IMG/VR virus record: IMGVR_UViG_3300038948_000007
Location: 1 to 42,856 of that record
Source of the DNA: a virus
DNA: 42,856 nt
Reading direction: 5' to 3' (one strand)
The notes under the pieces were generated by a model that saw nothing but the letters and a program-made list of their open reading frames with translations, made no database searches and was not told the origin of the DNA. Position numbers and translations under genes: made by a program. Within the stretch, counting starts at the first letter, position 1, and each line of letters begins with the position of its first letter. Positions 3,615 through 40,264 of the stretch are shown in pieces.

Positions 3615-5750
3615 CTACAACCAGCGGATACGACCGCCGACGGTTAGGGTTCTGCGCTCGCCAACGCGGTACATCATAGCCGCCGCGCCTGACTGCGCTG
3701 CAATGGTCGCGATAAATGGCGCATCAGCTGTCGCGTCGGCTGTCATGGCCGACTGTGCCGCGATGGCCGCTGCTATTGGTGCGGCGGCTGATAGTGACAC
3801 GCTGGACCCGGCAACGGCTGCAATCGTGGCAGAGATAGGCGAGGCCGCGGTCATAAACGCACTGGCACCGGCAGCGGCTGCCACGGTTGCCGAGGCCGGC
3901 TGTACGCGCGTTACCTGGCCCGTTGCGCCGGACTGCGCTGCGATAGTGGTCACAACCGGCGCATTGGACGACAGCGCCGCAGCAAGGGCCGATTGGCTCG
4001 CGATTGTGGCGGCCATGCTGCCGGAAACCGTGATGGCTGCGGTTGTTGCGGACTGGGCGGCAATGGTTGCGTTGGCGATATGGCCGCGCGTACCGGTCGA
4101 CGTCGTTGCCGACTGGCCGGCAATGGTCGCCGCCGCTGGTTGCGCCCTGGTTGCCTGGGCGGTCGTTGCCGACTGACCGGCCACGGTTGCCGCCCCGGGC
4201 TGGACCCGGGTTGCCGCTGGCGTAACACCGGCCTGGGCGGCTATCGTCGCGGCCATCGGAACCGTGCCTGAGAGCGCGGCCGTCAAGGCTGCCTGGGCGT
4301 CAATCTGGGCAATCTGGGTCGCGATGACCTTGACCGCCGCGGTCGTTGCGGACTGGCCGTCTATCGTTGCCGCGCCTGGCTGACCTCGTGTCAATGTCGA
4401 GGTCGTTGCTGACTGGCCGGCAATGGTTGCCGCGCCCGGTTGGGCTCGGGTTGCCGCCGAGGTCGTCGCGGATTGCGCCGCAATAGTTGCCGCGCCCGGC
4501 TGGACCCGGGTTGCCTGGGCTGTCGATGCCGACTGCCCTGCAACCGTCGCGCTGGCTGGCGTCAGCTTGGTTGCCGTTGACGTGGCCGCGGACTGCGCAG
4601 CAAAGGCCACCGCTGCCGGTTGGCGTTGGGTCGCGTTGGGCGTAATTGTCAGCGTTGGCTCAGACGTGGCGCTGATTGGTATCGTGGCCGATAGCGGCGC
4701 GTTGATGCCGGCGACACCATCAATCGACACAATGGCGCTATGCGCGCGCGCGCCCGTGGCGGTTGTTGCTGACTGACCAGCCACGGTTGCCGCGCCCGGC
4801 TGCGCACGAGTCGCTGCCGAGGTCGTTGCCGACTGCCCTGCAACGGTCGCAACACCAGGGCGTTGCCTGAGCACCGTTGACGACACCGCGGATTGCGCTG
4901 CCACAGTCGCCGCAACCGGCACGTTCGCGCTCAGCGCCGCTGCCGCTGCCGATTGGCTTGATATGGCTGCCGCAACCGGCGCGTTGGCGCTCAGGCCAGC
5001 GGTTACGCTGCTTTGACCGTCAATGGTCGCGGCCATCGACTCATACCATAGGTCCTGGCCAAGGTACGTACCGCGCGGCACGACGATAACCGGGCCGTCG
5101 ACCCTGGCCGGCGCGTTGTACAGCGTGCCAGCGGTTCGGCCAATGATGTCGCGCTCTGGGCTGTGCTCGCCGAAATCAGGCACGCAAAATGATGGCAGCG
5201 GCCGGAGCATATGTGGCGCCATGCCGGTCTGTAGCGCCGCGATTTCGCCGTTACTTAGGACGCGCTTGAATATTGCGGGCGCCGCGATATCGCCATCACA
5301 TGGTACCGTCAAGTCATCGGTAATGCCGATGAATAAGTCCCGCGTGTTGCTCAAGTCCTGATTGGTTCCGGTTTGGGTATCGGCCAGTGTACCGTCGACC
5401 CAAATCCGGACATTGCCAGCGGCGGCAACGCCTGGTGTTCTGTCGTACAGGATATGATGCCAATTGCCATCATATAGGTTGTACGTACCAGCGACCGCGT
5501 TGGCGGTCACGTCGCCGCTGCCGGTGTCGGTTATCCTGACGCGCAATTCATCTGACGCCTGAATATAGACCAACTGCATGCCAGGGAAACCGCCGCCCTC
5601 GCTCTTGCCACAAATCCTTTCATTGCCCGACGGCGTGCCGTTTTGACGAAACCAAAAAACCCAGGTACAGGCCGACGACGCAGGCTCGACCGGCGTGCCG
5701 TGCGCAAACTTGATGTGCGTCGATGATGACGCTACAAATCTTCGAGCCAT
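3615..5750 (-). CDS. LamG-domain fibre with 20-residue repeat stalk
   Basis: A 711-residue protein. Residues 1-180 read as a LamG/concanavalin-like lectin domain (CTWVFWFRQNG; DGNWHHILYDRT; VRIWVDGTLADTQTG; DLFIGITDD; IFKRVLSNGEIAALQTG), the pattern of sugar-binding jelly rolls. Residues about 230-690 are Ala/Thr/Ser-rich repeats of 20 residues with core ATIAxQSAxTxAxTRxQPGA, probably an extended stalk. The product is probably a secreted-surface or fibre tip binding protein on the virion. Low complexity and period are visible directly; the role as receptor binder is inferred from the position among fibre genes. Confidence 0.75.
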   Translation of the reverse strand: MARRFVASSSTHIKFAHGTPVEPASSACTWVFWFRQNGTPSGNERICGKSEGGGFPGMQLVYIQASDELRVRITDTGSGDVTANAVAGTYNLYDGNWHHILYDRTPGVAAAGNVRIWVDGTLADTQTGTNQDLSNTRDLFIGITDDLTVPCDGDIAAPAIFKRVLSNGEIAALQTGMAPHMLRPLPSFCVPDFGEHSPERDIIGRTAGTLYNAPARVDGPVIVVPRGTYLGQDLWYESMAATIDGQSSVTAGLSANAPVAAAISSQSAAAAALSANVPVAATVAAQSAVSSTVLRQRPGVATVAGQSATTSAATRAQPGAATVAGQSATTATGARAHSAIVSIDGVAGINAPLSATIPISATSEPTLTITPNATQRQPAAVAFAAQSAATSTATKLTPASATVAGQSASTAQATRVQPGAATIAAQSATTSAATRAQPGAATIAGQSATTSTLTRGQPGAATIDGQSATTAAVKVIATQIAQIDAQAALTAALSGTVPMAATIAAQAGVTPAATRVQPGAATVAGQSATTAQATRAQPAAATIAGQSATTSTGTRGHIANATIAAQSATTAAITVSGSMAATIASQSALAAALSSNAPVVTTIAAQSGATGQVTRVQPASATVAAAAGASAFMTAASPISATIAAVAGSSVSLSAAAPIAAAIAAQSAMTADATADAPFIATIAAQSGAAAMMYRVGERRTLTVGGRIRWL
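3690..5035 (-). repeat. 60-bp tandem repeat array coding a fibre stalk
   Basis: The DNA repeats with a 60-bp period: successive 60-base rows of the plus strand line up almost in register, with recurring GTCGTTGC-GACTGGCCGGCAATGGT-like segments. There are about 20 degenerate units. Several adjacent units (4120-4210, 4330-4510, 4760-4870) are nearly identical, which shows recent duplication or gene conversion, while the outer units have drifted. The array keeps the frame. Confidence 0.8.
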
Positions 5751-8240: not shown

Positions 8241-10145
8241 TTACAGGATATCGACCGAGAATTGGCGGCAGGTCATATCCTGCGCGCCCGCGCCCGTCGC
8301 GTTCCAAACCACTGTAGGGTACAGTTCAAGGTTGCCGGTGAAATCAATCGACCCAGCGGACGTTGTATAGATTGAGGTGAAATCAGTCCACCACGTTGTC
8401 GCCGATGGCGTGGCGGCTGCCTTGCTTGCCGCCAGAACACTGCCGCTTGCTGTCACCAGCGTCGGAATGAATTCAGCCTCGATTATGAATTCATCAAGGG
8501 TTGACCCTGAATTGTTCGGCACGACCTGGGCGACGACTGCGCCAGTTACACCAGAATAGCTGCCAAGCCTAATATTGAAACCAGGTTCATCGGTTGGCGT
8601 GCCGCCACGGGTGAACGTCGCGCGTATGCGGACGACAGCGCCAACATCAAGATAACCGCCAGGTATGACGTATTTTAGGTCAGTTGGGCCTGACAGCTGA
8701 AACGTTTTTTCCGTGCTGGTCGTGTCATCGACCGCCAGCGATACAGCCTGCAACGCATACACGTTCGGCGATAGCCCATGGTACCGCGACCCGTCGTAAT
8801 ACCTCAGCTGGTCGGCGCTACTATCTGGGTAAATATCACCGGCGCTTGGCGCGGTCGGCTTGGCCTTGGCAACGAGGCGTGTAACGCCGCGCGTGGCATC
8901 TGCGGCGTCAGTTAAAACCGCAAAACGGTCAATAGCAATGCGTGTAAGGCTGCCATCTAAGGTTATATATGTCGAAGGGGTATTAACGCCAGTGCCAGCA
9001 ACACCAGGTTCGGCGGTACTTAGCACCACATCGGCCGCGCCGGTGCCCCTGCTGCTACCGCTTGATAATTCGCCGTCGCCCGCGTTCTGATTGGCACCAG
9101 CCGCGTCACCGCCTCGCGCGCGTGCGAGGCCGCCGCCGCCCAAAGCCTGAGCATCACCGCCGTTCAGGTACGCGCTGCCGCCGGTGCCTGACGTGGAATC
9201 ACCGCCAGAAACGTTGACGCTACCACCGCCGCCGGTCACGGTGTTTTCGCCCCCCGTTATTGCGATGTCGCCGCCGTCGCTATTGCTGGGGCCGGCCGTT
9301 ATTGTGATGTCGCCGCCCTCGGCGTTGACGCCATCGCCGCCGTCAATCGTAACATCACCGCCCGCGCCTGACGACGAATCGCCGCCGTCGATAACAACCG
9401 CACCGCCCGCGCCGACCGACGCATCGCCGCCCTTTAGCGCGGCGTAACCCGCCGTTCCTGACGCCGTATTATCACCGCCTGATACCGTGGTATCGCCGGG
9501 GTTAGTGTCGCTTGCGCCGCCGATAACCCTAACATCGCCGCCCTCTGCCCCAACCCCCACACCACCGAAGATATCGATTGTCCCGCCGGCGCCAGATGAC
9601 GACGCGCCGGCAACGGCGTTAATATTGCCGCCTTTACCTGACGAGGTAGCGCCGCCGGTTAAAAGAACATTGCCGCCGCTGGTCGCGCCATCGCCGCCGT
9701 CGATGGTTACATCACCGCCCGCGCCTGACGTCGAAACGCCGGCATCGATATCAACAGGACCACCACTGCCGGTGTCACTATCGCCAGCCCGAACCCGTAT
9801 ATCACCGCCAGTTGAACCGAGGCCATCACCGGCGGTCATATGCACATAACCACCGGCGCCGCTGGTGTTGGCGTTGCCGCCATCTAGTACTAACCGACCG
9901 CCGTTGCCGCTTGTGTCAGGCTGCAACGCCTTGATAATCAGGTCGACCTCGAGTGAGCCTTTATAAAACCGCTCATTGAGCCATTCCAGCCAGGCATACG
10001 TGTAGTATTGCAGCCAGTTGAAATACGAGCTGGGCGGCTGGTCGTCGACGGCCCAGCCGCTGGTTTTCTCGCCTGCGGCCGGTTCGGTCCGGTTAGCACC
10101 GCCAGTGTTCCATTCGGGCTTTTTGGTTGGCTGTGGCTCGACCAT
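8241..10145 (-). CDS. Gly-rich repeat tail fibre
   Basis: A 634-residue protein. Residues 1-70 are an N-terminal virion-attachment region with aromatic residues (SYFNWLQYYTYAWLEWLNERF). From about 80 to 375 there are some 19 repeats of 14-16 residues with the pattern GGDVxIxGGDxxxxGxGG (x includes many Ser, Thr, Asn), which suggests a Gly-rich beta-solenoid or polyglycine-type shaft. Residues 385-634 form a globular beta-rich head (TFQLSGPTDLKYVIPGG; FTRGGTPTDEPGFNIRLGS). It follows the baseplate genes, where fibre genes usually lie. The name rests on this architecture and position. Confidence 0.75.
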   Translation of the reverse strand: MVEPQPTKKPEWNTGGANRTEPAAGEKTSGWAVDDQPPSSYFNWLQYYTYAWLEWLNERFYKGSLEVDLIIKALQPDTSGNGGRLVLDGGNANTSGAGGYVHMTAGDGLGSTGGDIRVRAGDSDTGSGGPVDIDAGVSTSGAGGDVTIDGGDGATSGGNVLLTGGATSSGKGGNINAVAGASSSGAGGTIDIFGGVGVGAEGGDVRVIGGASDTNPGDTTVSGGDNTASGTAGYAALKGGDASVGAGGAVVIDGGDSSSGAGGDVTIDGGDGVNAEGGDITITAGPSNSDGGDIAITGGENTVTGGGGSVNVSGGDSTSGTGGSAYLNGGDAQALGGGGLARARGGDAAGANQNAGDGELSSGSSRGTGAADVVLSTAEPGVAGTGVNTPSTYITLDGSLTRIAIDRFAVLTDAADATRGVTRLVAKAKPTAPSAGDIYPDSSADQLRYYDGSRYHGLSPNVYALQAVSLAVDDTTSTEKTFQLSGPTDLKYVIPGGYLDVGAVVRIRATFTRGGTPTDEPGFNIRLGSYSGVTGAVVAQVVPNNSGSTLDEFIIEAEFIPTLVTASGSVLAASKAAATPSATTWWTDFTSIYTTSAGSIDFTGNLELYPTVVWNATGAGAQDMTCRQFSVDIL

Positions 10146-25319: not shown

Positions 25320-26821
25320 TACGACACGGTTTGCGCCGGCTCAGTGTTGAGCTCGAGCTGGGCACCCTGCGTTGGCTCGCCTGGTTGCGCGACAACAACC
25401 TGCGGCGGCGGCTCCGGCTCTGGCTCCGGCGGCAGCGCGGCCTCGGCCTCGCGCATTTCTTCGTCGAGCTGGGTCTCGTAACTGTAGCGGTCGCCGCCGA
25501 AGCGGCTGCGCGCGACCTCGTCCGGCGTCAATACACCGGTGTCAATATAGGCGGTGTCGGTCTCGGCCTGGGTTTTGCGGGACTTGGTCTCTTCGTCCTG
25601 CGACATTTGCCATAGCTTTTCGAATTCGTAGCTATGCGACTTGGGCTCAACGCCGCCGGTCGGGCCGTCCTTTGCGAGCCAAAGCAACCGGATGAGATAG
25701 GCCAGTTGCTTGCGCAGGTCGGCCTGTTGGCGCCCCTCGACCCGGTCGTACCAGAACGATAGGTCGCCCTCGGCCGTGGTATTGAGACCACTGGGCGACT
25801 GCCCGAAAAGCTTTGTCACGGGCATTCGCGCGGCCGAACACATACGCAGGATGAATTGCGTGAGCATATCCGGCAAGCCCGCGACCGGCGTGGCTTTGCG
25901 CTCTAATGTCTCGCCTTCGTCAATCGGGACCATGCGCACGGTCGAGCGACACATATCCATATTCGTCATGCGTTCCATCACGACATTGAAGCCATCCATG
26001 GCGATTGTGCGCTCGAGCCCGGGCGACGTAAAAATCATCGGCGCGAAGTCGGCCAGGAGGTGCGCCGCGCCCGTCCAGCTGATATCGAAATCCTGTAACA
26101 CTGTCTCGGTCCGGATATAGGCCGAGTCGTGCCAGCCGCCGTTGGCCAGCAACCGGCGCTTGTTCACCCGAACGCCATCGAACCGCAGGGTGCGCGATTC
26201 GTGAATCAACATGTTGAGCTGGGTCGTGCCGGTGATGCCGCCAGTTGACCTCAGCTGATAGATTTCCGGCGTGCCATACTTGGGACTCAGCGGGTCGTCG
26301 TATTCCTTGATGATATCGACATCCCAGCGGTCATATACCTCCAGAAATTTGATGCTCCGGATAGCGTTCTCGCGCAACGGCTCGGCCATGGACTCAGCGC
26401 CGCCGCCATCGTCGGCGCCGATGAATATCAGGCTGCCGCCGAAAACCTGGGCCCAGGTCATCGCCTCGCCCAGCGCCTCCGTTGCGCCGAGGTCGCCCAG
26501 CGCCTCCAGCATATCGTTTGCCGCGTCAATGTTGATTTTCGAGTCAGCGTCGTCGGCCATGGTGACTTGCAGCCGTATCCACTTGCGCAGCATGTCTTCG
26601 ACCAGCTCGTCGACGATGCGCGCGCCTAGGTCGTTGCCGTGATAGATATCCTCGTACTTCTGCCGGTCGGTCGAGGGCCCAGGCGACAGGACGCTAGCGC
26701 CGGTCAGTTTGTCTCTACTGGTGCGGTGCCCGGTATAGGTGTTTTCCCAGCCGTCGCGCCTCACAATGCGTAAGTGCCGCCCGCGCTCATCAACAATTCT
26801 TGTCTGGTACCCTGCCGCCAT
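25319..26821 (-). CDS. Portal protein (DUF1073 family)
   Basis: A 500-residue protein with DUF1073 features: GNDLGARIVDELVEDMLRKW at residues 63-82, the middle segment LKYWEV-like strand (IRSIKFLEVYDRWDV), and near residue 350 the motif TKLFGQSPSGLNTTAEGDLS with FWYDRVEGRQ after it. The last 60 residues are Pro/Glu-rich (PPEPEPEPPPQVVVAQPG). GGAGG lies seven bases before ATG 26821. It overlaps the terminase gene by 32 bp. It forms the portal ring for DNA entry. Confidence 0.9.
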   Translation of the reverse strand: MAAGYQTRIVDERGRHLRIVRRDGWENTYTGHRTSRDKLTGASVLSPGPSTDRQKYEDIYHGNDLGARIVDELVEDMLRKWIRLQVTMADDADSKINIDAANDMLEALGDLGATEALGEAMTWAQVFGGSLIFIGADDGGGAESMAEPLRENAIRSIKFLEVYDRWDVDIIKEYDDPLSPKYGTPEIYQLRSTGGITGTTQLNMLIHESRTLRFDGVRVNKRRLLANGGWHDSAYIRTETVLQDFDISWTGAAHLLADFAPMIFTSPGLERTIAMDGFNVVMERMTNMDMCRSTVRMVPIDEGETLERKATPVAGLPDMLTQFILRMCSAARMPVTKLFGQSPSGLNTTAEGDLSFWYDRVEGRQQADLRKQLAYLIRLLWLAKDGPTGGVEPKSHSYEFEKLWQMSQDEETKSRKTQAETDTAYIDTGVLTPDEVARSRFGGDRYSYETQLDEEMREAEAALPPEPEPEPPPQVVVAQPGEPTQGAQLELNTEPAQTVS

Positions 26822-28187
26822 GCGCTAGCCTCCGAAATCGTTCTACTTTCGCTAGGTGTATACCTTGACTCAGAGCATACACAACAGCGTCGGCCGCGTC
26901 AGTTGACCGCCCGATTCTCTTTTTGATGTCGTCTTTTGATTCGACTTTGACGACCCGGTCGCCCGATATCGTATACCTAGGCGCGGTCAAGTCTTCCCGT
27001 AGCCGCGGGTCGTCGAAATCGAGGCACACCAGGCCTTGCCGGAATTGCTCGCGCGTATGCCACCACATTTGAGAGCGCAGGTTGTTGAATTTAAACGTTT
27101 CGCCTCGTGTCTCAATCGGTTTCGCGCCGCTGATGACCTCGGTCACGCGGTACCGTTGAGCGTGCAGGATGTCGACCACGCCGGCGCCCATGCCGACCGC
27201 GTCTATCATGACGTTGCGAGCGTCGACCGGGATATCGACGATACGCCGTGCGACAATGGCGGCCGTGCGTTCTAGGCTTAGGCCGTGATGATACTCCAGC
27301 TTCAAAATGGCGTTGCCCTTTTTGTGAGCCAGCACGGTGTCATCGTCGCCGTACCTGGCCACGTCGACGCCCAGAACGGCCTTGCCGTCGACGAACTCGA
27401 CATCCCGGGCGGCTAGCGTCCAATCGTAGGATATGAGCTGGTCGGGCTCGTCGGCGCTTTCCCAGTTGCCCAAAACAAACCGTTCATAGGCCGCCGGGTC
27501 GGTTTCTTTCAGGGTCGCCAGGCTGTCGCGGTACGACTGCGGCAAGTGCGGGTTGTCATCGATGCGCGCTGGTAGGTAGTGGTAGGGCGACCGTAGGGTA
27601 CCCTTGCGCCATGGGTCGTACCAGCGCCGCTTGACCCAGGATAGCGACGGGTTGCAGGTCGCGAGTATCAGCGGCGGCGGTTGCTTGTGCTGGCAAATCC
27701 AGGACCCGGCGCGCTCGATGGCCTTGACGAACGACTTTTCTTGGATTTCGTTGCACTCTTCCAATGCGAACCCATTGACCTCCAGGCCCTTCCAGCGGTT
27801 CAGGTCAGGGTCGCGGTCGGCGGTCTCAGGGAAGAAAATGATGCGCGAGCCGTTGGCGCAATCGACATACCAGTCGGTCCGGTTGATGGGCCCGCAGAAC
27901 CCGTCCGGCGCGACGCGCTCGAATGACGGTATCGTGTTGCGCTTGATGGTCGGGAGGTCCTTACGAACAACGGCCCAACGGCTACCCTTGTAAATCTTCG
28001 CCAGCGCCAGGACCAGCAACAGCATGCAGTAGGTCTTGCCGCCACGAATCGCGCCGCCGTACAGCAGCCTGGTGTAACGCCCTGAGAATACGGCCTTGGC
28101 GAATTCGGCTTGCTTCTCAGTGAAAACGATTTCGTCGACCTGTCGAGCGAGCTCTGCGCCGACTATGGTGTCGATTGCGTCTGACAT
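26790..28187 (-). CDS. terL: Terminase large subunit
   Basis: A 465-residue protein. ATPase motor: Walker A GGAIRGGKT (44-52), Walker B FALEECNE with E143/E144, coupling motif TCNP (177-180). RNase-H-like nuclease: D275 in LGVDVARYGDD, D329 in MIDAVGMGAG and D430/D433 in DAADAVVYA. The start ATG at 28187 lies in a TGATG overlap with the methyltransferase stop; a longer frame to 28307 is a shadow. The N-terminal 16 residues MSDAIDTIVGAELARQ are the same, but for one, as those of the methyltransferase upstream. This motor packages the DNA with the portal. Confidence 0.95.
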   Translation of the reverse strand: MSDAIDTIVGAELARQVDEIVFTEKQAEFAKAVFSGRYTRLLYGGAIRGGKTYCMLLLVLALAKIYKGSRWAVVRKDLPTIKRNTIPSFERVAPDGFCGPINRTDWYVDCANGSRIIFFPETADRDPDLNRWKGLEVNGFALEECNEIQEKSFVKAIERAGSWICQHKQPPPLILATCNPSLSWVKRRWYDPWRKGTLRSPYHYLPARIDDNPHLPQSYRDSLATLKETDPAAYERFVLGNWESADEPDQLISYDWTLAARDVEFVDGKAVLGVDVARYGDDDTVLAHKKGNAILKLEYHHGLSLERTAAIVARRIVDIPVDARNVMIDAVGMGAGVVDILHAQRYRVTEVISGAKPIETRGETFKFNNLRSQMWWHTREQFRQGLVCLDFDDPRLREDLTAPRYTISGDRVVKVESKDDIKKRIGRSTDAADAVVYALSQGIHLAKVERFRRLAHGGRVPDKNC

Positions 28188-28189
28188 CA
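28141..28189 (-). repeat. 49-bp repeat copy A (start of terL)
   Basis: The sequence at 28141-28189 matches 29166-29214 at 45 of 49 bases, the last 27 perfectly. Each copy ends exactly at the TGATG start of its gene (large terminase and methyltransferase). Confidence 0.9.
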
Positions 28190-29212
28190 GAACAGGCTGC
28201 CTTGCTTCGCATTGAGGCAATGCGGGCTGAACCAGATTGTTTCGCGCGTTGCGTTGGCGTCGGCACGATTGGCACGCCCTGAACCATAACCGCCTTTCGC
28301 CTTCCAATGCGCAACCGACCAGCCTGGCATATCGTGCTCGGTATCATATCCGCACAATGCAATCCGCAGCAGCGGGTTGTCGCCATTGGCAAGCGCCCAT
28401 TCGCGGCAATCGGCGGCGACGGTGCCGCTGTCGCTCGGTCCGTAACATCGGGCGTCGCGCTCATCGGTCGAATAGGGTGGGTCAAGAACGATGCCGGTCA
28501 GGCCAAGCTTGAATGTTGGCGTCGGACCACAAAGGCGTTGCCAATCGCCGCAACAAACACGCACCCGGCGCAACCGCTCGCCCAGGGCCGCAAACCAATC
28601 ATAAACGCCGCGCTTGCGGTGCACGCCTTGGCCTAGGTCGCCCAAGTGAACGCGCTGGCGGTGCACGCCTCGGCCTGAGTTGTCCAAATGAACGCGCTGG
28701 CGTTTTATGCCTGCCTGGTCCGATTTAACCAACTTGCCGCCTTGGCTGACCCATGACCCGTCGCCGTTACACCAGCCGCTACCTATCCAGCAGCAGATGC
28801 CCCAACACCACCAGCCAGCAATCTTCGCGTCAAAGAATTCAGGGTCGCCCATAAGCCGGTCAGTCAAATCCTGGCGTTGCTCGAGCAACCAAACATGGCG
28901 CGCATGCAAATCAGCCTCGTTGACTGGCCAATCGCAATGCTTGGCGGTTTCCTCTGGCGCATAGGCAACCGCGCGCCAAAAGTTGGCAATGAAACCGTCC
29001 AGGTCGTTGACTGTCTCGGCGCTCGCAATCCGCGGCGCGCCAAGCAACACAGCCAGCGACCCAGCGAACGGTTCGACATAGTTGGCAACCCGGCCGAACC
29101 TTTCCCAAATCAGCGGCGCGGCGCGCGATTTGCCGCCAAACCAGGGGAATGGCGCTTGCAACGGTTGTCGAGCCAGCTCGGCACCGGCTATGGTGTCGAT
29201 TGCGTCTGACAT
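28187..29212 (-). CDS. DNA adenine methyltransferase, Dam/D12-like
   Basis: A 341-residue protein. Motif X PFPWFGGKSR (21-30), motif I YVEPFAGSLAVL (45-56) and motif IV DPPY (244-247) are the order of D12-class N6-adenine methyltransferases. Residues 170-202 are 14-residue tandem repeats (KRQRVHLDNSGRGVH; RQRVHLGDLGQGVH; RKRGV) in a Cys- and Trp-rich part that probably contacts the target. Residues 1-16 copy the start of the large terminase. I take ATG at 29212 (TGATG overlap). It may protect phage DNA from restriction or regulate packaging. Confidence 0.85.
   Translation of the reverse strand: MSDAIDTIAGAELARQPLQAPFPWFGGKSRAAPLIWERFGRVANYVEPFAGSLAVLLGAPRIASAETVNDLDGFIANFWRAVAYAPEETAKHCDWPVNEADLHARHVWLLEQRQDLTDRLMGDPEFFDAKIAGWWCWGICCWIGSGWCNGDGSWVSQGGKLVKSDQAGIKRQRVHLDNSGRGVHRQRVHLGDLGQGVHRKRGVYDWFAALGERLRRVRVCCGDWQRLCGPTPTFKLGLTGIVLDPPYSTDERDARCYGPSDSGTVAADCREWALANGDNPLLRIALCGYDTEHDMPGWSVAHWKAKGGYGSGRANRADANATRETIWFSPHCLNAKQGSLF
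28616..28699 (-). repeat. 42-bp tandem repeat in the methyltransferase
   Basis: Two units of 42 bp (28616-28657 and 28658-28699) plus a partial third code for (K/R)QRVHLxxxGxGVH. They start and end alike (GCGGTGCACGCC and TGAACGCGCTG on the plus strand). Confidence 0.85.
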
Positions 29213-29214
29213 CA
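29166..29214 (-). repeat. 49-bp repeat copy B (start of methyltransferase)
   Basis: Second copy of the repeat at 28141-28189, 45 of 49 bases equal. It includes the codons for the common N-terminus. Confidence 0.9.
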
Positions 29215-29406
29215 CGGCAATTTCTCAGCCAGCAACAGAGCCAGCCAGGTCAGCGCCAAAACACCGCCAACGGTTCCAACCACGAGATATACCAGCCAGG
29301 CCCAGGACGGGTCGAAACCAGGCCACAGGTACCGCGCAATCAGGCCCAGGCAAACGCCTATAAGAAACGACCCAACGAGTGATATCCAGCGGCGGCGATG
29401 GGTCAT
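29212..29406 (-). CDS. Two-pass small membrane protein
   Basis: A 64-residue protein with two hydrophobic helices: residues 8-25 (ISLVGSFLIGVCLGLIARYL) and 36-58 (WLVYLVVGTVGGVLALTWLALL), a basic start (MTHRRRW) and a short C-terminus. It starts at an ATGA overlap and ends in a TGATG overlap with the methyltransferase. It could be a superinfection exclusion or second holin-like protein; it lies far from the lysis block and has no recognised family. Confidence 0.65.
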   Translation of the reverse strand: MTHRRRWISLVGSFLIGVCLGLIARYLWPGFDPSWAWLVYLVVGTVGGVLALTWLALLLAEKLP

Positions 29407-29753
29407 GCTACCTCAATAGGCCAGTCGGGCGGGTCGAGCCAGGCATCGCAATCACAATCATCTTCGCAAGGGCAGGCCGTTAGGTCGTCCAGGCAATACC
29501 GCAAATCTTCCCAAAGGCTGCCCCAATGCCAACCGCAAGTGAACCGGTCATCGCGGATTGATGCGCACAGGCGGCACGTTCGATACGTCGACCAGTCGCC
29601 AGCGCACAAAACGCGCTCATATCGGTACGGCGCGCCGCGCGGTATTGTGCGCTCGCATTCGCAGCACGTATGCTGCTTTCGAGAGCGCAAGACTTCGCGG
29701 CAGTGATAGAATTGCGCGGTTTCGTCGACATCAATGCAGCAACAGGCCGTCAT
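29403..29753 (-). CDS. Cys-rich protein, probable zinc-binding
   Basis: A 116-residue protein with 16 Cys residues: CCC at the start, CCECERTIPRG (residues 30-40), CAGDW, CRLCASI, TCGWHWG and the CPCEDDCDCD segment near the end. The C-x2-C and later C-x2-C pairs at 31-34 and 60-63 suggest a zinc knuckle around 'CcECer.I..G..Y', a pattern of small phage proteins. I do not know its function. It is coupled to the TM protein by ATGA. Confidence 0.65.
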   Translation of the reverse strand: MTACCCIDVDETAQFYHCREVLRSRKQHTCCECERTIPRGAPYRYERVLCAGDWSTYRTCRLCASIRDDRFTCGWHWGSLWEDLRYCLDDLTACPCEDDCDCDAWLDPPDWPIEVA

Positions 29754-29756
29754 GCG

Positions 29757-30221
29757 TTACTTGTACCACGGCTTGAATGATTTCAGGGCATCCAAGTCCG
29801 GCCAGGTACCGTCGAACGTCAACGCCCGGTCGTCAAGCGTAACCAGGGCGGGCGGTTTGTTCCTCGGGAAACCGATTGCGTCAACTACCTGTCTGACTGC
29901 GAACCCGACTTCATAGTGCCATGGGTCGGGCCCTATACCGGCAATCCGACAACGAAACCACTCCGGCGTATCGCGCCAATTCGGTGCAAGTCTGCAATAG
30001 TGTTTAATCAACCAGCGCCGCATGGCTCGGCGCCCTCCCCAGTAATTGGACCGCGACGAATAGATTTGTACGTCGAACGGTTCGAGCGCTCGCACAATGA
30101 ATTCCAGCGCACCCCAGACAGGTTCGTCAGGGATGCACCGCGGGCCTTGCCAGCCGCTGGTGTAAGAATGAATGACACCGTCAAAATCAAGCGCCAGTAT
30201 TGGCCTGTATGTCTTAGCCAT
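29757..30221 (-). CDS. HAD-superfamily phosphatase-like protein
   Basis: A 154-residue protein. The N-terminal LALDFDGVIHSYTSGWQG is the HAD nucleophile motif (D12-x-D14), IYSSRSNYWGGR gives motif II (Ser around residue 54) and LVTLDDRALTF (D136/D137) the C-terminal acidic motif. Size and sequence fit the small HAD-like proteins of phages that may be 3'-phosphatases or nucleotide phosphatases in DNA metabolism. The start overlaps the preceding stop by 8 bp. The substrate is unknown. Confidence 0.8.
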   Translation of the reverse strand: MAKTYRPILALDFDGVIHSYTSGWQGPRCIPDEPVWGALEFIVRALEPFDVQIYSSRSNYWGGRRAMRRWLIKHYCRLAPNWRDTPEWFRCRIAGIGPDPWHYEVGFAVRQVVDAIGFPRNKPPALVTLDDRALTFDGTWPDLDALKSFKPWYK

Positions 30222-30396
30222 GGTCTTCCTTTTCCCGTTCGGCTTCCAACCGGTCGACTTGCTCGGTCAGCGCCTCGGCGACACGAAGCGCGCCGTCGGG
30301 CGCCAGCCAAGCTGACGCTGACTGTTGACCGTCCGAAATCAACAGAAAAACGCTTTCGCCTTGGCGCCCAATCTGTATTTTGTGTTCGTTACTCAT
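30214..30396 (-). CDS. Small protein of a paralogue trio (1)
   Basis: A 60-residue protein starting at 30396 in a TAATG overlap with the gene before. It contains SVFLLISDGQQSASAWLAPD and GALRVAEALTEQVDRLEAER, a helix rich in Leu and charges. The pattern 'L.pd....v...l' resembles the C-terminal motif of the two genes upstream, so it may be a distant relative. The function is unknown. A longer open frame to 30579 is a shadow. Confidence 0.6.
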   Translation of the reverse strand: MSNEHKIQIGRQGESVFLLISDGQQSASAWLAPDGALRVAEALTEQVDRLEAEREKEDHG

Positions 30397-31517: not shown

Positions 31518-32735
31518 TCACGAGGTTTCGCGTTTGGCCTTGCCGCCTGTCAGGTTTTGCCAGCGCTCGACAATCACGTCGCAATAGACTGGTGAAATCT
31601 CAGATCCAACGCAGATGCGATTTGACTGCTCGGCGACCACCAGGGTCGTACCGCTGCCAAGATACGGGTCAACCACCGTTGCGCCGGGCTCCGTGTGGTA
31701 ACACAAAAGGTTCGCCCATAGCGCGGGCGGTCGGGCGGTCGGGTGCTTATCGTGGCTCTTTGTCATGGGCGCGTTGATGACCGTCGATTCATTGGCGGGC
31801 GGGTTGGAATTCAATGGCCGACCTTTGCGCGCAATCAGCAGTATCGACTCGTGCTGCTGCTGGTACTTCGACCCGGGCCAGAACGAAAACCGGTCCTTGA
31901 CCCAAACCAACTCTTTGCGGAATTCGAACCGATTTTTCCGTAACGCGTCAGCGAGCGCAAAAAAGTGGCGGTCGACCGGGAATGTCATGACAACGACATC
32001 GCAGGCGACATGGTCGAGAAACGCCAGCGCCGTCGACGCACTGTCCGGGTCAACATAGCCCTCGTGAGCCGAAGCATTGCCCCTGAAATCGGCTGACCGC
32101 TGATAGTCAACCGCATATGGCGGGTCGGTCAGCACAATCGCAGCGTTAGCTATTGCCGGATTGTTCAATTGCATCATTTCGCAACAATCGCCGCAAACCA
32201 AAATATGCCGACCCAACGTCCAGACATCGCCAGGCTTCGTCACCGGCTCATTTGGAGGGTCAGGCACTTCGTCGTCATTGACGTCGCCAGTGCCGTCCAG
32301 CGAATCACTGGCGCCCTTGATTAATTCGTCAAACTGGTCCTGCGCGAAGCCGATATCGCCCAAGTCGATATCCGGTATCGAGTCAATCACCGATTGCAAT
32401 TGCGGCACATCCCACTTGGCCAGCTCGGCCGCGCGGTTGTCGGCAATGGCGTATCCGGCGGCCTCTTGCTCCGACCATTCCGGCCGACGGACCGCAACCA
32501 GTGTGTCCGGTTCGGGCTCAACGACCAGGACCTTGCCGAACCCTGCCGCGCGCGCAGCCTCGACCGTACCATTGCCGGCCCGGACCGTATCGGTGCCATC
32601 GAGCACAATCGACCGGCCCGGCCCGAACCGGTCCAGGGATTTCTGGATTGCCGCCATGTTGGCTTCGTCGTGCTCGCGTGCGTTGTTCGGGTCGGTCTGC
32701 ACGTTCGCGATATCAATGGTTGTCGTCTTTGCCAT
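31518..32735 (-). CDS. ParB-domain DNA methyltransferase
   Basis: A 405-residue protein. Residues 1-115 read as a ParB/sulfiredoxin-like domain ('p.NaR.H.e...aai..Sl..fG....ivld....v.aGng...Aa...G....V'), often found fused to phage DNA methyltransferases. Residues 165-395 form the N4/N6 methyltransferase: DPPY at 204-207 and later VVDPYLGSGTTLVVAEQ (SAM-binding motif I) near 354-370, so motif IV precedes motif I (beta-type order). It probably modifies phage or host DNA. Target unknown. Confidence 0.9.
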   Translation of the reverse strand: MAKTTTIDIANVQTDPNNAREHDEANMAAIQKSLDRFGPGRSIVLDGTDTVRAGNGTVEAARAAGFGKVLVVEPEPDTLVAVRRPEWSEQEAAGYAIADNRAAELAKWDVPQLQSVIDSIPDIDLGDIGFAQDQFDELIKGASDSLDGTGDVNDDEVPDPPNEPVTKPGDVWTLGRHILVCGDCCEMMQLNNPAIANAAIVLTDPPYAVDYQRSADFRGNASAHEGYVDPDSASTALAFLDHVACDVVVMTFPVDRHFFALADALRKNRFEFRKELVWVKDRFSFWPGSKYQQQHESILLIARKGRPLNSNPPANESTVINAPMTKSHDKHPTARPPALWANLLCYHTEPGATVVDPYLGSGTTLVVAEQSNRICVGSEISPVYCDVIVERWQNLTGGKAKRETS

Positions 32736-32744
32736 GGTCTGCCC

Positions 32745-33086
32745 CTAGCTGGCCGGCGGCGGGTTGTTGTGTTCTTCGAGTTGCCGCAGGTACCAGAGCA
32801 ATTCGCACGCCATCGCCTGGCGCCCGGGCGGCAGTTGCTTGACCCGTTCATTGGCGCCCGGCTCAGGAAACAAATCATCGACCGCGGTCGCCAGAGCAAC
32901 CCAACGGTCCTGCCACAGGTGGATTTGCGACGGCTGGAACACGTCCAGGACGATTTGGTTGTTCGTCCAAAAGTCGCGGTCGTACCCTTTGAGCGCGTGA
33001 AAATCAGGAAACCAAAGGCGTCGCTCGTCCAGGCCGAGCTCGGGCGCTGGCGAATGCCGATACGGACCGAAATAGATTTTAATCAT
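32745..33086 (-). CDS. Unknown phage protein
   Basis: A 113-residue protein starting at ATG 33086 in an ATGA overlap with the upstream methyltransferase (ribosome site AAAAGGAACC). It has aromatic, mixed regions: YFGPYRHSPAPELGLDERRL, FPDFHALKGYDRDFWTNN and, near the end, helical MACELLWYLRQLEEHN. I see no domain that I recognise. It lies between two methyltransferase genes, which may suggest a partner in modification or a simple passenger. Confidence 0.6.
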   Translation of the reverse strand: MIKIYFGPYRHSPAPELGLDERRLWFPDFHALKGYDRDFWTNNQIVLDVFQPSQIHLWQDRWVALATAVDDLFPEPGANERVKQLPPGRQAMACELLWYLRQLEEHNNPPPAS

Positions 33087-33655
33087 GCCGGTTCCTTTTC
33101 GACTGGCGGCAGCCAGTGCAGTTGCGTTCTGGGTTGCATGCCGCACCGCCAGCCAGCAAAGCAGTAATCATACCTATCAACGCCGCCGTCGCCGCTGAAC
33201 GATGGCCGCTTTGGCAGAACGAACACACGAGCTGGCCGGTTGCGGCGCCAAAATTCGTATCGCCGCTTGGACGCCAGGAAACCGAGCCGCAGCAAAAACA
33301 CAACATTCTGCGCCACAATCAGCGCCTTTTCGACGAATTCCTGCGCATGGTGAAACGGCGGGTTGCCGACGACCAGGTCGTATCGCGTCGCGAATTGATG
33401 CGTCAGGAAGTCGCCCCGTTGAATCGCCTCGACATTGCCCGGCAGCACGCTATCGGCGCCCGGCTCCAAATCCATGGCCCGGATTGACGCCCTAGGATAG
33501 GCACGTCGCAACGGGCCCAGGAAACTACCGCCGCCGGCCGATGGCTCCAAAATCGCGCAATTTGGCCGCACCGGAAACCACGGCAAGACCAGGTCGACGC
33601 ATTGGCGCACAAAGGCCGGCGGCGTATAGTAGCGCCCTAGTGGGTCAGCCGGCAT
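33083..33655 (-). CDS. N6-adenine methyltransferase-like protein (NPPF type)
   Basis: A 190-residue protein with YYTPPAFV (residues 9-16, the entrance motif), ILEPSAGGGSFLGPLR (SAM-binding motif I, residues 35-50), the acidic MDLEPGA (motif II) and NPPFHHAQEF (motif IV, residues 98-107). This is the order of gamma-type adenine methyltransferases. There is no separate target recognition domain, so it is minimal, about the size of small phage methyltransferases. It might modify DNA or RNA. Confidence 0.85.
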   Translation of the reverse strand: MPADPLGRYYTPPAFVRQCVDLVLPWFPVRPNCAILEPSAGGGSFLGPLRRAYPRASIRAMDLEPGADSVLPGNVEAIQRGDFLTHQFATRYDLVVGNPPFHHAQEFVEKALIVAQNVVFLLRLGFLASKRRYEFWRRNRPARVFVLPKRPSFSGDGGVDRYDYCFAGWRCGMQPRTQLHWLPPVEKEPA

Positions 33656-36395: not shown

Positions 36396-36604
36396 GCGGT
36401 CGCGGCGGCGCTCGAGCCAACGCCGGGCGCCCGCCCGAGCTGGACGGCGGGCGCACGGTAGCTGTGTACCTGGACGTACAGACGCTGGACAAAATCGACC
36501 GCGTATGCGTAGGGCTAGGCCTGACGCGGTCACAAGCGATAAGGCTGCTAATAATGGCGGCCAATATCGATCGAGAAAATACATTAGGAAAGGGCGAGAT
36601 ATGA
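36392..36604 (+). CDS. Ribbon-helix-helix DNA-binding protein
   Basis: A 70-residue protein with an N-terminal Gly/Arg arm (GRGGARANAGRPPELDGG) and an RHH core: strand RTVAVYLDVQ, helix LDKIDRVCVGLG, then LTRSQAIRLLIMAA. The 'GGaRPNaGRPp' arm is common to phage RHH-type and HTH proteins. It begins at an ATGA overlap and ends at another with the nuclease gene. Likely a transcription regulator of the early arm. Confidence 0.75.
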   Translation: MSGRGGARANAGRPPELDGGRTVAVYLDVQTLDKIDRVCVGLGLTRSQAIRLLIMAANIDRENTLGKGEI

Positions 36605-37698
36605 CCGAAAAAACAGAAGAAACTATCCGCGCATCAGAGGCGGATATCGTGGTCAATTGCGGTCTGGCAGCGACAGCGCCAGAGCATGAGATTGACGATA
36701 GCGGACCGGAGGCCGCGCTCGGCCAGGCGGTGCACGCATCCCTGGAACAGTGGGTCGGGCGCGGCATGGCCGATGAGCCGGAGGCGCAACCGCACGCCAA
36801 CGAGCACGGCGTCGACGTGCAGGCGGTCGAGGATTTGATCGCGCGCGCGCCGGAGGCAATCCGGTCAATCCGGCATGACCTGACCGGCCTGCGTGCCGAG
36901 GTAGACGTGCGCGGCGGCTACGTGCGCGGGCGCGTTGATGCGTTGTCGCTGCGCATGGCCGCCGGCAAGCTATTCTCGACCGGGCTCATCGACTGGAAAA
37001 CCGGGCGCGACCCGAACGGCAGCAAGCCCGCCCAGCGCCTAGCGTACGCCAGCGCGGTCGAGGCGCACTATGGCATGCCAGCGCAGCGGGTTATTTATAC
37101 TGCAGAGATATGGCTGGCAACCGGTGATATCCTGGAAGCACGATACGATATCGACAGTATCCAGGGATTTCGGGCCCGGCTGGCTGACCGGCTCAAGCGC
37201 AAACGCGCGGCACCAGGCGCCCATTGCCGCTACTGTCGGCGTCGGTTTGAGTGTGTTGAGCGCGACACGTACCTGCGCGCGAGCGGGCGCGCGTTGGCTG
37301 AGCTTGATGGCGCCATGCCGACACCTGACGCGCTGGCCGCACTATGGGACCAATCGCGGGCTCTTAGGACCGCGCTCGAGCGCTATGATAAAGCCGTCGA
37401 TGCAATGCTGGCCGAGCATGAGCATTTGACCCTGCCGGACGGCCGGAGGCTGGTCCATAAGGCAATCAGTCGCGATAACATCGACGCACGCAAAGCCTGG
37501 CCAGTCATGGCTGGCGCAGGCCTCAACCAGGACGACATCAACGCGACGTTGAGCATCAGCAAGACCAAGCTTTTGGAGCGCATCGGCGCCAAGGCCGCGC
37601 GCGGTCAGAAGCAAAAGGCCAAGGCTGATTTGATGATTCGCCTGGACGAGGCTGGCGCAATCCAGCGCACCGTGGCAAAACGTCGTACAATCATTTAA
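36601..37698 (+). CDS. PD-(D/E)XK nuclease with Cas4/AddB-like Cys set (DUF2800-like)
   Basis: A 365-residue protein from ATG 36601 (ATGA overlap, box AAAGGGCGAGAT). Nuclease motifs: GQAVHASLEQW with His45, E100 or D113 (RVDAL), DWKTG (131-135) and QRLAYA. Four Cys (C20 and C209-x2-C212-x5-C218) match the spacing type of Fe-S clusters in Cas4 and AddB-type nucleases. The C-terminal 140 residues are helical and typical of DUF2800-like phage exonucleases. It pairs with the RecT-like gene downstream, probably as the exonuclease of a phage recombination system. Confidence 0.85.
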   Translation: MTEKTEETIRASEADIVVNCGLAATAPEHEIDDSGPEAALGQAVHASLEQWVGRGMADEPEAQPHANEHGVDVQAVEDLIARAPEAIRSIRHDLTGLRAEVDVRGGYVRGRVDALSLRMAAGKLFSTGLIDWKTGRDPNGSKPAQRLAYASAVEAHYGMPAQRVIYTAEIWLATGDILEARYDIDSIQGFRARLADRLKRKRAAPGAHCRYCRRRFECVERDTYLRASGRALAELDGAMPTPDALAALWDQSRALRTALERYDKAVDAMLAEHEHLTLPDGRRLVHKAISRDNIDARKAWPVMAGAGLNQDDINATLSISKTKLLERIGAKAARGQKQKAKADLMIRLDEAGAIQRTVAKRRTII

Positions 37699-37714: not shown

Positions 37715-38761
37715 ATGCATGACGAAGCCGAAATCCAAACAGCCGCACTCGTGCGGGCAGACGCCATGGCAGCGGCCAGCCAGCGCCTGGAGAAATCAAT
37801 CCAAGGCCAGGCCGAAATCCAGCGCAAGCTACGCGAGCCGCAATACCTGCAACTGTTGAAGGACACCTATTGCGTAGGCGCGACCGATGCCGAATTCGCG
37901 CTGGCGATTGAGACCGCCAGGCACCTCGGCCTGGACCCGGCCGCGCGGCAAATCTATTTCATCAAGGCGTACGATGGCCAGCTGAGGCGCGAGAAGCTGG
38001 TTACGATTGTCGGCATCGATGGCCTGCGCCTGATTGCCGAGCGCACCGGGCTGTACGCGGGCCAGACCGCGCCGCAATGGTGTGGACCCGATGGTAAGTG
38101 GGTCGACGTTTGGCTAGGCGATGGCCCTCCGGCGGCCTGCCGTATGGGCGTCTTGCGCCGCGACTTCGAAGAACCGGTCTACTGCGTCGTCAAGTACAAG
38201 TCATTTGCCGTAACAAATCGTGACGGCAAACCGCGGGCGCAATGGGCCAAAATGGCCGACCATATGATTTGGAAATGCTGTGAAGCCCAGTGCCTCCGGC
38301 GCGCATTTCCTCAGGAGTTGGCAGGCGATTTCGAAGTCAAAGACGCCGAGCCCAACGTGGAAAGCCGCGGGTTCCGGGTCCGTCAGGACGGCGCTGGATT
38401 GCTGACCGAGCTGGCCGAGGCGACCACGCCGGATGAGCTCAATCGGTTGGCAGCGCAGGCGGCTGACTTGCCAGAGGCCGAGCGCGAGGCCGCCCGGATT
38501 GCCTGGACTGAGGCACGCGACCGGATCGCCAGTGTTGCACGTGAAACAAAAGGCAAAGGCAACGGCAAGAAAAAGAAAAACGACAAAGCCAAAGCCAAGG
38601 CCGAGCCAGCGCCGGAGCCTGAGGCCGCACCCACAGGCGAATATGACTTCGGCCCGCCGCCCTGGGACGAGGTGCATGCCGATGCGCCCAAGGCCGGCGC
38701 CGGCGCCGATGCCGAGGCCGCCGCACAGCCTGATTTCGGATTTGACAACAACCAACCTTGA
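37715..38761 (+). CDS. RecT/Bet single-strand annealing protein
   Basis: A 348-residue protein. The conserved part includes FALAIETARHLGLDPAARQI, YFIKAYDG, LVTIVGIDGLRLIAERTGLY, AGQ and MADHMIWKCCEAQCLRRAFP; this is the RecT/Bet core. The C-terminal 100 residues are Lys/Pro/Ala-rich (KGKGNGKKKKNDKAKAKAEP) and end in an acidic motif with aromatic residues (DFGFDNNQP), as single-strand-binding tails have. With the nuclease upstream it forms a recombination pair for DNA repair and replication. Confidence 0.9.
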   Translation: MHDEAEIQTAALVRADAMAAASQRLEKSIQGQAEIQRKLREPQYLQLLKDTYCVGATDAEFALAIETARHLGLDPAARQIYFIKAYDGQLRREKLVTIVGIDGLRLIAERTGLYAGQTAPQWCGPDGKWVDVWLGDGPPAACRMGVLRRDFEEPVYCVVKYKSFAVTNRDGKPRAQWAKMADHMIWKCCEAQCLRRAFPQELAGDFEVKDAEPNVESRGFRVRQDGAGLLTELAEATTPDELNRLAAQAADLPEAEREAARIAWTEARDRIASVARETKGKGNGKKKKNDKAKAKAEPAPEPEAAPTGEYDFGPPPWDEVHADAPKAGAGADAEAAAQPDFGFDNNQP

Positions 38762-39331: not shown

Positions 39332-40264
39332 ATGGCTCGCTATAGGAAGGTCGACCTTCGAATTCACAGCGACGAAAAATATCGCAACCTGAGCAAGCCC
39401 CAGCCATGCGGGCAATATTTGTTCCTCTACCTTTTGATAGGGCCCCATACGGGCCCCATACCTGGATTGTTCCGGCTCAGCCTGGCGACGCTGGCGGACG
39501 AGCTTGGTTGGAACGGTTCCGAAACCGTTTCGAAACCGTTTCGGGAACTGTTGCGAAACGGTATGGTAAAGGCCGATTTCGAGGCCAGGTTGGTCTGGTT
39601 GCCGAACGCCATCAAGTACAACCCACCGGCAAATCCGAACGTAGTCAAAGGCTGGGCGAACGCCTGGGATGAACTCCCAGAATGCGCGTTGAAAAACGAA
39701 GCATATCACGCATTTAGGTTGTTCTTGGAACAGTATCCCGAAGCATTCCGAAACGCTTTCGAAACCGTTTCGAAACCGTTACCTGAACCGTTTCGAAAAC
39801 AGGAACAGGAACAGGAGCAGGAACAGGAACAGGAACAGGAACAGGATAACCACACTCTGTCGAAATCGACGGCTGACGCCGCCGACGCCGACCGGGCTAC
39901 GGATTCCAAAATTGCCAGGGACGACATCAACGAGGTCTGGCAGCATTACCGCACGCATCACCCGAGCGCGGCCAAGAGCTTAAAAACCAATCGCAAGGAA
40001 TATCGCCTGATTAGGGAACGCCTAGACGATTTCGAGGTCGATGAATTGAAAAGGGCAATCGACGGATACCATAGCTCGAGCTGGCATTGCGGCAACAACG
40101 ACCGCAACAAACCGTACCTATCGCTCGAGCTCATGATGCGCGATATCTCGCACGTGCAGGCTGGGCTTGAATATCTCGCAGGCAATCAAAGAGACAACGG
40201 CCGCCCGCGCGCCCTTGACCCAAGCGCACTGTTGCGCGATATGGCAGATGAAGGGACGGTGTAA
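39332..40264 (+). CDS. Replication initiator / helicase loader-like protein
   Basis: A 310-residue protein. Residues 1-125 form a winged-helix domain found in phage replisome organisers ('r..d..i..de.y..L..p...ql...Li.gP.....G.fr.s...La..lg' and 'NP.vv.gW...'). Residues 157-171 are a pure Glu-Gln repeat. Residues 195-285 form a helical C-terminal part (KSLKTNRKEYRLIRERLDDF; YLSLELMMRD), like the loader domain of DnaD- or O-type proteins. The gene holds 11-bp iterons (next features) and is followed by the helicase gene by TAATG overlap, as in lambda O-P. Likely origin-binding initiator. Confidence 0.8.
   Translation: MARYRKVDLRIHSDEKYRNLSKPQPCGQYLFLYLLIGPHTGPIPGLFRLSLATLADELGWNGSETVSKPFRELLRNGMVKADFEARLVWLPNAIKYNPPANPNVVKGWANAWDELPECALKNEAYHAFRLFLEQYPEAFRNAFETVSKPLPEPFRKQEQEQEQEQEQEQEQDNHTLSKSTADAADADRATDSKIARDDINEVWQHYRTHHPSAAKSLKTNRKEYRLIRERLDDFEVDELKRAIDGYHSSSWHCGNNDRNKPYLSLELMMRDISHVQAGLEYLAGNQRDNGRPRALDPSALLRDMADEGTV
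39511..39563 (+). repeat. Iteron cluster 1 (GAAACCGTTTC)
   Basis: GAAACCGTTTC occurs twice without spacing (39521-39531 and 39532-39542), flanked by the related GAACGGTTCC (39511-39520) and GAAACGGTA (39555-39563). They code for SETVSKPFRELLRNG in the initiator. Confidence 0.8.
39750..39794 (+). repeat. Iteron cluster 2 (GAAACCGTTTC)
   Basis: Four 11-bp units: GAAACGCTTTC (39750-39760), GAAACCGTTTC (39761-39771), GAAACCGTTAC (39772-39782) and TGAACCGTTTC (39784-39794). The cluster lies about 230 bp behind cluster 1 and codes for a copy of the same peptide, FETVSKPLPEPF. Confidence 0.8.
39800..39847 (+). repeat. Hexanucleotide repeat (CAGGAA)8
   Basis: Eight units of CAGGAA, one with GAG for GAA and the last ending GAT, code for (QE)7QD. 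It follows the iterons directly. The length may change by slippage without a frame shift. Confidence 0.9.

Follow-up and report, generated by a model that had tools for sequence, protein, structure and literature searches.

Sequence comparisons indicate that, in an uncultured tailed phage, a methyltransferase body lacking a start of its own entered the junction between a small TM protein gene and terL, with duplication of 49 bp of the recipient. We give this explanation as a whole a probability of about 0.8. The history of insertion and duplication, taken by itself, is firmer still and seems to us highly probable; the double template switch that we propose as its route is tentative. An empty site in a relative, a terL origin of the duplicated leader, a gain in this lineage and sharp boundaries are all documented below.

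The window (the whole stretch of DNA analyzed, 42,856 bases, from the record of an uncultured virus) contains detectable baseplate J, DUF3383, major capsid, portal and amidase genes, and the phage probably has a contractile tail. On the minus strand, the TM gene is followed by the methyltransferase gene, terL and the portal gene. The relevant features are as follows (L002, L003 and L005 are relatives described below).

29212-29406, minus strand: small TM protein gene, found directly upstream of terL in L002, as is a longer homologue in L003
29166-29214, minus strand: upstream repeat copy, TGATG plus methyltransferase codons 1-16, the terL-derived leader; L002 is similar without a break from the TM gene as far as 29166
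28187-29212, minus strand: putative D12-class adenine DNA methyltransferase, 341 aa (PF02086, E 5e-8; phrog_56, E 2e-20; Dam/DpnM fold matches)
28190-29165, minus strand: presumed inserted part of the methyltransferase gene, its body, running from codon ~17 through the final sense codon; L002, L003 and L005 lack it
28141-28189, minus strand: downstream repeat copy, TGATG plus terL codons 1-16
26790-28187, minus strand: terL, large terminase, 465 aa (PF04466; phrog_2, E 2e-41)

A 49-bp Repeat at Two Gene Starts

The two copies form a direct repeat of 49 nt, identical at 45 of 49 positions and with a start-to-start spacing of 1025. Each copy extends from the T of TGATG to two bases into codon 16, and the encoded leaders, MSDAIDTIAGAELARQ and MSDAIDTIVGAELARQ, differ in a single residue, at position 9. 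The flanks of the two copies are unrelated, both upstream (where the end of the TM gene is to be compared with the end of the methyltransferase gene) and downstream. By an analytic estimate, about 7e-13 ungapped pairs as good as this one are expected by chance in the window. Outside repetitive coding regions, the window has no other long direct repeat that is non-local, and its 1419 possible starts include no second pair of this kind.

An earlier note on this DNA had reported the 45/49 match, the position of both copies at gene starts in TGATG overlaps and the 16 shared N-terminal residues with one difference; we confirmed all three, with exact coordinates. It had also proposed that the coupling and start region was copied, which holds for the TGATG overlap and codons 1-16 and fails for the ribosome-binding site: the duplicated piece lies entirely downstream of the preceding gene's body, meaning that no Shine-Dalgarno region was included. 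Judged from this extent, what was duplicated is a start and not a full translation signal. The pair could in principle reflect an assembly error at the repeat; four differences between the copies, and two intact reading frames, make this unlikely.

Stop and start codons overlap in TGATG at 29214-29210 (TM gene and methyltransferase) and at 28189-28185 (methyltransferase and terL). By eye, purine-rich, Shine-Dalgarno-like stretches precede most starts in the interval, those of the methyltransferase and terL being weaker or more distant; taken with the overlaps, this leads us to infer that both genes are translated by termination-reinitiation at TGATG. A search confined to the sigma-70 consensus found no promoter-like site for the methyltransferase gene. 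Terminator-like matches, which lie inside its coding region, numbered four, near the chance expectation (2.1, sd 1.6).

Relatives without the Methyltransferase

The closest terL relatives were searched for in IMG/VR. Identity to the window's terL protein is 85% in L002 (IMGVR_UViG_3300038948_000013), 81% in L003 and 82% in both L004, whose terL sequence is incomplete at the start, and L005; L009 is partial. Three of these relatives (L002, L003 and L005) include sequence upstream of terL, and only L002, with 78% DNA identity in terL, is close enough for the same leader to be present.

In L002, the TM gene ends in TTGCCG-TGATG and terL follows at once (MSDAIDTIAGADLARQVDEIVFTPKQ...); the segment occurs once, and a methyltransferase gene is absent. 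Comparison of the window with L002 by blastn gave two blocks, 29408-29166 and 28189-26301, whose intervals on L002 overlap by precisely 49 bases (2557-2605). In L003, the longer TM homologue is joined to terL via TGATG, and in L005 a homologue of the 116-aa gene at 29403-29753 of the window stands directly before terL; no methyltransferase gene is found there in either. The methyltransferase body was not detected by tblastn in any of the terL-relative contigs examined. L002 thus has the arrangement anticipated for a relative without the methyltransferase, namely, a direct TM-terL join with one copy of the repeat. This empty site, together with the terL origin of the leader, supports the earlier reading of the repeat as the footprint of a gene insertion ahead of terL. 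Since all three informative relatives lack the methyltransferase, its gain in the lineage of the window is the simplest history.

The empty state of L002 might instead be secondary, an ancestral methyltransferase gene having been lost by recombination between the direct repeats. A 92% identical, 49-bp direct repeat in a phage with RecT and an exonuclease is a plausible deletion substrate, and a loop-out would leave an in-frame single copy in a precise TM-TGATG-terL join, as in L002. We nevertheless consider this quite improbable: the more distant relatives L003 and L005 are likewise without the gene, which makes gain simpler; the L002 copy is not a simple one-crossover mosaic, as it differs from both window copies at positions 38 and 39; and the loss would still presuppose that the gene had once been inserted with the same duplication.

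Beyond IMG/VR, the GenBank phage collection contained no nucleotide match to the window and, in protein comparison, no terL relative with more than 60% identity. Among bacterial genomes, a first terL profile scan yielded no confirmed relative and a second one distant relatives only (best 53%), and a portal-protein scan yielded one distant locus. When the leader was sought by degenerate scans in front of other genes or of a methyltransferase, nothing was recovered apart from L002 and internal matches attributable to chance.

Origin of the Leader

The methyltransferase has 19 relatives at 40-63% identity over most of the protein, after exclusion of a twentieth match that was a fragment. In nearly all of them a possible start lies 0 to ~10 residues before LQAPFPWFGGK, and the N-termini are short and mutually different. 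Some begin at a TTG or ATG encoding the motif's first residue (TTG in L083 and L099); the corresponding TTG of the window gene is internal, at Leu 18. The leader MSDAIDTIxGAELARQ occurs in none of the 19, and the finding named in the earlier note as speaking against insertion, a common N-terminus among methyltransferase relatives, was therefore not encountered. The gene neighbors of these relatives, judged by eye, are unlike the TM-terL arrangement of the window. Among terL relatives, L002 and L003 carry the leader-like LARQV[DE]EIVF. Because the leader, or part of it, is common to terL of L002 and L003 and foreign to the methyltransferase relatives, it is, on this comparison, terL-derived and set before a methyltransferase body.

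At the other end of the gene, L083 and the window share similar termini followed by TGA (SKQGRLF-TGA and NAKQGSLF-TGA, respectively), implying that the methyltransferase stop is native and that its TGA was thus available as microhomology.

At the four sites that differ between the window copies, the methyltransferase copy agrees with L002 at 28, 32 and 41, and the terL copy at 35. Neither window copy matches L002 at positions 38 and 39, so that the methyltransferase copy has three differences from L002 and the terL copy five. The shared differences at 38 and 39 fit a duplication after the split from L002. Original and duplicate cannot be assigned, the methyltransferase copy matching L002 no worse and the numbers being too small. 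Ks is ~0.31 between the window copies and ~1.0 between the terL genes of the window and L002, the former resting on three synonymous changes and hence unreliable for dating. The methyltransferase gene has a G+C content of 0.61 (GC3 0.67), which resembles that of its neighbors and is uninformative on foreign origin.

A different explanation for the shared leader is that it is a functional element (a regulatory RNA, a protein-binding site or a targeting peptide) which both genes acquired or retained for its role. The dS between window and L002 is indeed 0.19 in the terL leader as compared with 1.06 in the rest of terL, and likewise low (0.08) in the last 16 TM codons. However, synonymous changes at 2 of 13 comparable leader codons, as against 147 of 362 codons in the remainder of the gene, are suggestive at most, and a test on slightly different leader counts (3/15) gave p = 0.18. 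That the low divergence is common to the adjoining end of the TM gene suggests local relatedness, not leader function. Furthermore, the close terL relatives L005 and L107 have a different leader or none, and the methyltransferase leader is predicted to be disordered (pLDDT 31-38), outside the methyltransferase fold. We regard a functional leader as very improbable and retain its origin as a duplicated terL start.

The Methyltransferase Protein

PF02086 matches the N-terminal catalytic part of the protein with 33.3 bits (cut-off 22). In an alignment of 16 methyltransferase sequences, QAPFPWFGGK and LDPPY do not vary, and the PFPWFGGK and DPPY motifs are intact in the window protein. The best Foldseek matches were 7m6b, E. 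coli Dam, DpnM and T4 Dam (best E ~1e-6), with TM-scores of only ~0.4-0.5 for a model of mean pLDDT 64. The score for the TIGR00571 Dam subfamily was below its cut-off, so the protein is not a canonical Dam. By profile, motifs and predicted fold, it qualifies as a putative D12-class (Dam-type) adenine DNA methyltransferase, and the predicted gene looks intact.

28609-28692, minus strand: tandem repeat of 2 x 42 nt inside the methyltransferase gene, encoding a 14-residue unit whose copy number varies in relatives

The unit, G-R/Q-G-V/I-N/H-R-Q-L/R-P/V-HLG-D/N-A, occupies residues ~168-205, between conserved WIG and GDW, in a region of low-confidence AlphaFold prediction on a shallow alignment. 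Homologues L082-L101 have ~1 to 5 copies, L085 and L094 having the most. The repeat may represent a rapidly evolving target-recognition element. Also encoded are a fusion of a ParB-like domain with an N6/N4 methylase (31518-32735) and a phrog_799 methylase (33083-33655), making three methyltransferase-type genes in one 43-kb phage.

Proposed Route of Insertion

Recombination would have brought the methyltransferase body into the TM-terL junction, duplicating TGATG and terL codons 1-16. The upstream copy would then have given the methyltransferase its start codon together with a leader of 16 residues, coupled to the TM stop, and the downstream copy would have kept the terL start, coupled to the methyltransferase's own TGA. 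The route that we favor, tentatively, is a template switch during replication or annealing, out of terL after codon 16 and into a methyltransferase gene, with a second switch back to a sister terL start via the short TGA/TGATG match. Selection would have retained the product, in which both reading frames are intact. No donor with this exact methyltransferase is known, its relatives standing at 40-63% identity. Two genes of the window may have aided template switching:

36592-37698, plus strand: phage exonuclease, RecT partner, possible recombination machinery (phrog_69, E 3e-18)
37715-38761, plus strand: RecT-like single-strand annealing protein (PF03837, E 3e-22; phrog_2780, E 1e-46)

Their involvement is plausible. 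Rad52-like phage recombinases drive relaxed recombination and mosaicism, according to PMC3945230.

The repeat-insert-repeat geometry is also what a mobile element (a transposon or a homing endonuclease) would leave if it had placed the methyltransferase, the 49 bp being a target-site duplication. Profile searches of the insert recovered no domain of a transposase, an integrase or a homing endonuclease, and strong terminal inverted repeats are absent from the two ends of the insert, so that both hallmarks of a transposon are missing. Usual target-site duplications, moreover, are far shorter than 49 bp. A mobile element is hence barely credible here, and recombination at the TM-terL junction remains our preferred explanation.

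Gene Turnover Before terL and Other Features of the Window

Gene sets between terS and terL differ among the window, L002, L003 and L005. The window has a HAD-like gene at 29757-30221 (profile matches phrog_23773 and phrog_1238, the HAD label being read from a DFDG motif). In L002, it is cut to its first 10 codons, MAKTYRPILA followed by ECI-stop (2179-2222, corresponding to 30192-30225 of the window), with 94% blastn identity over 34 bases. This remnant forms a second chimeric start between terS and terL and is compatible with a general habit. A further candidate for a transferred start, GGAGTGTATTTAATG in L002, matches a gene boundary of the window near 30396 at 14/15 positions and was rejected as not significant (E-value 3.2).

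A broader proposal would make the duplicated start the footprint of a reversible cassette, in which new cargo of this phage group enters by borrowing the downstream gene's start and RecT excises it precisely by way of the direct repeat so formed. We think this unlikely. If it were true, gene content before terL would turn over with reading frames always preserved, and the 10-codon remnant would be another trace. Precise loss of the methyltransferase could occur via the same 49-bp repeat.

Elsewhere in the window, iteron-like 11-bp repeats (GAAACCGTTTC and variants) occur at 39501-39569 and 39741-39798, in a DnaD-like helicase-loader/replication-initiation gene (39332-40264) that comes shortly before a DnaB helicase; by analogy with lambda O, they are possibly a replication origin within the initiator gene. 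Two long genes with internal coding repeats, 3615-5750 and 8241-10145, probably encode tail-fiber or surface proteins.

Relation to Known Systems

Cargo-gene gain and illegitimate or relaxed recombination are well known in phages (PMC3029335, PMC3945230), and inserted genes apparently expressed through overlapping start and stop codons are already known as well (PMC2988022). Like phage morons and other cargo genes (PMC3029335), the methyltransferase gene separates two genes that adjoin each other in a relative. Unlike a moron, it yielded no promoter-like site in the sigma-70 search, and its terminator-like matches fall inside the gene; its expression apparently relies on the TGATG overlaps, present at both junctions, and the duplicated start of the recipient gene flanks the insert.

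Mosaicism by illegitimate or relaxed recombination, including that through Rad52-like recombinases, places junctions at gene boundaries, as here (PMC3029335, PMC3945230 and PMC2327257), and the RecT-like annealase and exonuclease of the window parallel such systems. A simple replacement is what ordinary mosaicism gives, whereas the present junction has left a direct duplication of 49 bp together with an N-terminal fusion. Among the free-standing homing-endonuclease genes of T4, those such as mobE, inserted after nrdA (PMC2988022), also have no translation start region of their own and, through a stop/start overlap, seem coupled to the gene before them; the present gene differs in encoding a methyltransferase without an endonuclease domain and in starting with its downstream neighbor's codons. 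The start-associated sequences of Cluster K mycobacteriophages (PMC3203893) are also repeats tied to gene starts. However, SAS/ESAS occupy many genomic sites, whereas the present repeat has two copies, lies within coding sequence and is explained by one insertion. In a short search of the open-access literature, we found no described case of an insertion duplicating the recipient's start for the newcomer.

Most phage mosaic junctions bear no trace of their origin; here insertion, empty site and duplication can all be read. The case suggests that an incoming gene can take its neighbor's start while that start is duplicated, so that an overlapping operon stays translatable, and that an N-terminus common to unrelated genes can be mere debris of recombination, with no functional meaning.
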